Of a stretch of DNA of 64,000 nt, positions 24,930 through 24,959 are shown one piece after another. Below the pieces are notes generated by a model. The model ran no database searches. It had not been told where the DNA came from and saw only the letters and a program-made list of their open reading frames with translations. Source of the stretch: Leptotrichia sp. oral taxon 847 (GTDB taxonomy: Bacteria; Fusobacteriota; Fusobacteriia; Fusobacteriales; Leptotrichiaceae). Location: assembly GCF_001553645.1 (NCBI RefSeq), contig NZ_CP014231.1:1426001-1490000 (forward strand), written 5' to 3'. A program made the translations under genes and the position numbers. Positions within the stretch are counted from its first letter, which is position 1; each line of letters opens with the position of its first letter.

Positions 24930-24959
24930 TTGTTTTTTTTTTTTTTTTTGTGCTAAAAT
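24930..24959 (+). promoter_or_regulatory. Adhesin promoter with 17-T spacer tract
   Basis: TTGTTT (24930-24935) and TAAAAT (24954-24959) are 18 bases apart, and most of the spacer is an uninterrupted T17 (24933-24949). Slippage in the tract would change the spacing and hence promoter strength. The rest of 24732-25110 is very AT-rich and shows no gene. Confidence 0.6.

Follow-up and report, generated by a model that had tools for sequence, protein, structure and literature searches.

Poly-T promoter spacers and proposed slipped-strand variation in an autotransporter family of Leptotrichia

Upstream of the gene for a giant autotransporter of Leptotrichia sp. oral taxon 847, within the 64,000-nucleotide stretch of DNA analyzed here (the window), a run of 17 T residues lies between two promoter-like hexamers, raising the question of whether slippage in this run could alter expression of the gene by changing the spacing of its promoter. 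The reading on which the earlier note based this idea, TTGTTT and TAAAAT set 18 bases apart by what is mostly a T17 run, is correct: positions 24930-24959 read TTG-T17-GTGC-TAAAAT (Table 1), with a spacer that consists of T14 plus GTGC and with the final three bases of the −35 hexamer supplied by the run itself, so that slippage would move TTG relative to the −10 box. Because this −35 hexamer is weak, agreeing with TTGACA at three of six positions, a consensus promoter scan does not list the T17 promoter; TAAAAT, directly preceded by TGTGC, forms an extended −10 element 151 bases from the ATG. The window contains a single T17, all its other A/T runs being 10 or shorter, and since at least one T17 arises in 9 of 100 dinucleotide-preserving shuffles of the window, tract length alone is weak evidence.

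The gene downstream is a real fusobacterial type Va autotransporter. Its 2,113-residue product, which the earlier note took for a surface adhesin, matches the N-terminal domain NF033175 (E=4e-47, 159 bits; cut-off 55) and, over its C-terminal 350 residues, the β-domain PF03797 (E=5e-24, 85.9 bits; cut-off 26), and membership in this family implies probable surface exposure. Although it shares the N-terminal domain family and β-barrel of the Fusobacterium RadD-type autotransporters and is matched in part by the RadD model, it lies far below the equivalog cut-off of the latter (609 against 3500 bits), and identity with RadD was rejected. The complete genome (2,194,935 bases) contains 11 starts of the autotransporter family. 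Reading frames are broken in three paralogues, namely the copy at the window's left end, L036 and L031; the breaks in the first two lie near an A6 and a G6 run, respectively, and may reflect frame slippage or assembly error.

Table 1. Position of the T17 tract, its flanking promoter elements and associated genes in the window
Feature	Position	Strand	Basis or remark
−35-like hexamer TTGTTT	24930..24935	+	Only TTG (24930-24932) fixed, remainder in T run
T17 tract, proposed slippage site	24933..24949	+	Tract recurs in 9 paralogous promoters, 13-18 T
Extended −10 element TGTGC-TAAAAT (GTGC 24950-24953, TAAAAT 24954-24959)	24949..24959	+	TGN 5' of −10 box common to all tract-bearing paralogues
Probable transcribed leader, ~150 nt	24960..25110	+	CACTCACTCA at 25011-25020; predicted hairpin, motif in loop
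2,113-aa autotransporter (ATG at 25111): fuso_auto_Nterm domain, repetitive passenger, autotransporter β-barrel	25111..31452	+	NF033175, PF03797
Paralogue 19 kb upstream, two ORFs (9-1625, 1814-6184)	9..6184	+	Own T15 promoter just beyond window

Pattern searches of the whole genome place the tract in a wider context. The genome has just 12 A/T runs 13 or more bases long, and nine of these are T runs located 143-161 bases 5' of autotransporter family ATGs, all in sense orientation and with lengths of T15, T17 (window), T16, T14, T13, T16, T17, T16 and T18. All nine are flanked by TTG on the 5' side, retained at the same place in every tract-bearing paralogue, and by an extended −10 box on the 3' side, with TGN immediately preceding the latter in 9/9 cases. 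One subclass pairs TTGCCA (five of six matches to TTGACA) with TATAAT, whose closeness to the σ70 consensus supports the promoter assignment. The predicted −35/−10 spacers measure 18 nt in the window gene, L035 and L036, 16 nt in L027, L028, L029, L033 and L030, and 15 nt in L034. L032, the one paralogue in which the promoter-leader cassette is missing, has no tract either, and L031 carries an interrupted T9-C-T7 version with a 16-nt spacer; decay of a broken gene was considered for the latter and dropped, as relatives in genomes G009 and G006 share the T9-C-T7 tract, likewise with a 16-nt spacer. The odds of such placement are about 3e-34 when estimated naively and, conservatively, about 1e-9 when the four promoter classes are counted, or 6e-6 if intergenic DNA only is considered. 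Moreover, the pattern T13-G-N(0-4)-TAWAAT is matched seven times in this genome and its reverse not once. The other three long runs, which on the sense strand of the next gene read A14, A18 and A13, likewise occupy promoter-like positions; one of them, an A13 tract at L072 6936-6948, forms the promoter spacer of atpB in the ATP synthase operon, a counter-example from a housekeeping function. Because a few non-surface genes such as this have homopolymer spacers, a homopolymer tract by itself does not prove switching.

Comparison of the ~250 bases 5' of each ATG indicates that tract length differs between promoters that are otherwise nearly the same. L034 and L035 show no substitution over 256 columns, with T13 and T16, respectively, and one further 1-base indel; L033 and L036 show one substitution, with T16 versus T18; L029 and L034 two, with T14 versus T13; and the window gene and L027 thirteen, with T17 versus T15. 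In the related species G006, L086 and L087 combine three substitutions with T18 versus T19. These comparisons involve copies that are not independent observations, and assembled homopolymer lengths carry error, possibly by one or two bases. Spacers departing from 16-17 nt are found in roughly 5 of 14 pure tracts versus 0 of 7 interrupted ones, a tally that is suggestive only, the promoter search itself having favored 17.

Together, the placement of the tracts, their recurrence and, between paralogues, their rapid change relative to their flanks argue for the phase-variable promoter spacing that the earlier note had proposed, and the nine paralogous T13-T18 tracts and the near-identical copies differing in T number support this proposal at the sequence level. 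We thus consider slipped-strand variation of promoter spacing across the autotransporter adhesin family to be likely. The T17 run would constitute the spacer between a TTG −35 element and the extended −10 element of a presumably active σ70-type promoter; gain or loss of T residues by replication slippage within a clone would alter the distance between the two elements, and this change would raise or lower transcription while leaving the protein unchanged. In σ70 promoters, a spacing of 16-17 nt is strong and one of 15 or 18 nt weaker, and the same relation would be expected to hold here, with 16-17 nt states high and 15 and 18 nt states lower. By this general rule, the 18-nt spacer of the window gene may mean reduced expression in the sequenced clone. 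Since the −10 element is extended, graded output may be as likely as a strict on/off switch. If the nine family members vary independently, the outcome would be a mixed surface repertoire.

To survey relatives, the regions upstream of 80 members of the family were examined in 12 other species. Pure tracts of at least 12 were found among these in G006 only (T18, T19 and T12), and at the autotransporter family genes of most other Leptotrichia species the spacers are ordinary or interrupted. Within another genus of the Leptotrichiaceae (G014), two members read TTG-T16-ATGT-TATACT and TTGA-T14-ATGT-TACACT, and two others carry interrupted versions. Across 96 genomes of the order, T13-G-N(0-4)-TAWAAT yields 23 matches, including the seven of this genome and six in G028, against a single match to the reversed pattern. 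G028 is a Sneathia-like genome, to judge by its size (1,330,224 bases) and gene content, in which seven outer-membrane protein paralogues with common flanks carry tracts of T16, 19, 13, 18, 17, 18 and 15; this protein family is unrelated to the Leptotrichia autotransporters and shows the same promoter layout, with more tracts lying 5' of trimeric-autotransporter-like genes. Because the promoters of G028 are not recognizably related to the tract promoters of Leptotrichia, the poly-T spacer arrangement probably arose more than once. A search of viral contigs for the same species, intended for tract-length comparison, found none.

In other species, these promoters often have T-rich but interrupted spacers, which fits a second explanation: the T tract would serve a structural purpose in the promoter, being stiff or bent or aiding −35 recognition, and its length differences would reflect neutral slippage or assembly error rather than selected switching. 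The homopolymer spacers of atpB and of an aconitase-like gene in G009 (T18) indicate that a homopolymer spacer may be tolerated or play a structural part, and poly-T spacers have been reported to influence promoter activity (PMC8553145). However, A/T runs of 13 or more are scarce and cluster at a single surface-protein family, and where two promoters are otherwise identical, the 2-3 T by which they differ shift the spacing by amounts that matter for σ70, so that we regard a purely structural role as unlikely.

Control might also lie downstream of initiation, in a leader hairpin shared by these genes and presenting CACTCACTCA in its loop, with the tract modulating expression weakly. The motif occurs in the leaders of the tract-bearing genes, with a close variant in L030 and L031, and is nearly exclusive to the family: of 11 exact matches in the genome, 10, at 8 loci, fall in autotransporter leaders. 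In five divergent leaders, a hairpin of 22 pairs is predicted, three of them with compensatory change, and the motif occupies its loop; most other leaders give similar individual folds. On the other hand, an RNA alignment of all 12 leaders has no shared structure, and control through the leader would leave tract purity and length differences unexplained; as the main determinant of expression, it therefore appears quite improbable. The fold of the window leader alone has a z of −1.65, and an Rfam search of the upstream region returned nothing significant. The predicted hairpin with its CACTCACTCA loop (24966-25110 in the window) is a lead and not a result, and the motif could possibly be the target of a regulatory RNA or protein.

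A chance origin of the tract in an AT-rich genome, followed by spread through promoter copying alone, has in its favor the shuffling result and the fact that some promoters are plainly duplicates, but is very hard to credit, being disfavored already by placement (odds below 1e-5 with each class counted once), by the four divergent promoter classes that carry the tract in this genome, and by its presence in G006, in the different promoter context of G014 (T14 and T16) and in the unrelated protein family of G028.

Slipped-strand variation of promoter spacing, the reading preferred here, has counterparts in other bacteria. The porA and opc genes of Neisseria meningitidis have poly-G/poly-C spacers, and their −35/−10 spacing grades the expression of surface proteins. 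As in Leptotrichia, a homopolymer lies between the −35 and −10 elements of a surface-protein gene; unlike there, the meningococcal tracts consist of G/C and belong to single genes, whereas the T tract of Leptotrichia is found in nine paralogues and adjoins an extended −10 box. The T tract of Helicobacter pylori sabA also lies near an adhesin promoter but is not known to form the −35/−10 spacer, which is what the Leptotrichia tract itself forms. Control through the sabA tract has been described as rheostat-like (PMC4081817, PMC2715451). Nearest to the Leptotrichia arrangement is the vlp family of Mycoplasma hyorhinis, in which, according to the account given in the citing paper, each promoter contains a homopolymeric A tract whose insertions and deletions switch transcription (Citti and Wise 1995, cited in PMC10502178). 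As far as that account goes, the two systems share a surface-protein gene family, an A/T homopolymer in each promoter region and an AT-rich host; they differ in that the Vlp proteins are lipoproteins of a wall-less bacterium, whereas those of Leptotrichia are large type Va autotransporters for which switching is proposed from sequence.

A literature search, with most subscription journals outside its scope, returned no report of phase variation or homopolymers of this sort in Leptotrichia, Sneathia or Fusobacterium. Homopolymer-spacer switching is known as a kind, and its proposed instance in Fusobacteriota appears to be new. We lean, with some reserve, toward a broader picture in which several surface-protein families of the Leptotrichiaceae that are unrelated to one another acquired poly-T spacer promoters independently (autotransporters in Leptotrichia sp. 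oral taxon 847; outer-membrane and trimeric-autotransporter-like proteins in the Sneathia-like relative), forming a combinatorial, promoter-based phase-variation regulon, so far undescribed in Fusobacteriota, which in the species of the window would sit atop a shared leader RNA hairpin. Were this the case, Leptotrichia in the mouth, and possibly Sneathia in the vagina, could shuffle the giant adhesins that they display through slippage at many promoters; differences between colonies in adhesion and antigenicity would then have an explanation, and single-isolate studies of these adhesins would be complicated. Fusobacteriota would moreover gain a switching system based on promoter spacers, which could be tested at nine loci of one genome.

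Long A/T runs were also noted at other sites. In three species, one conserved gene of ~340 residues (L071, L205 and L210), for whose copy in this genome Pfam and NCBIfam give nothing significant, carries A18, A17 and A17, respectively, shortly 5' of a GTATAA-like box. At unrelated loci of two Leptotrichia species (L206, L208, L211, L213 and L214), TTCTAATC or a near variant is followed by A12-A17, and one such locus sits between convergent gene ends. In the Sneathia-like draft G027, a T40 tract lies close to where one contig stops (L271 1320-1359), and several contigs of this draft terminate in long T or A runs, at which the assembly probably breaks. Finally, a dispersed repeat of ~265 bp is present in three copies in the window, at 24340-24640, 22002-22265 and 10887-11149, the first of these sharing 94% and 84% identity with the other two; similar sequence occurs upstream of the autotransporter genes L029 and L034 and in L070.
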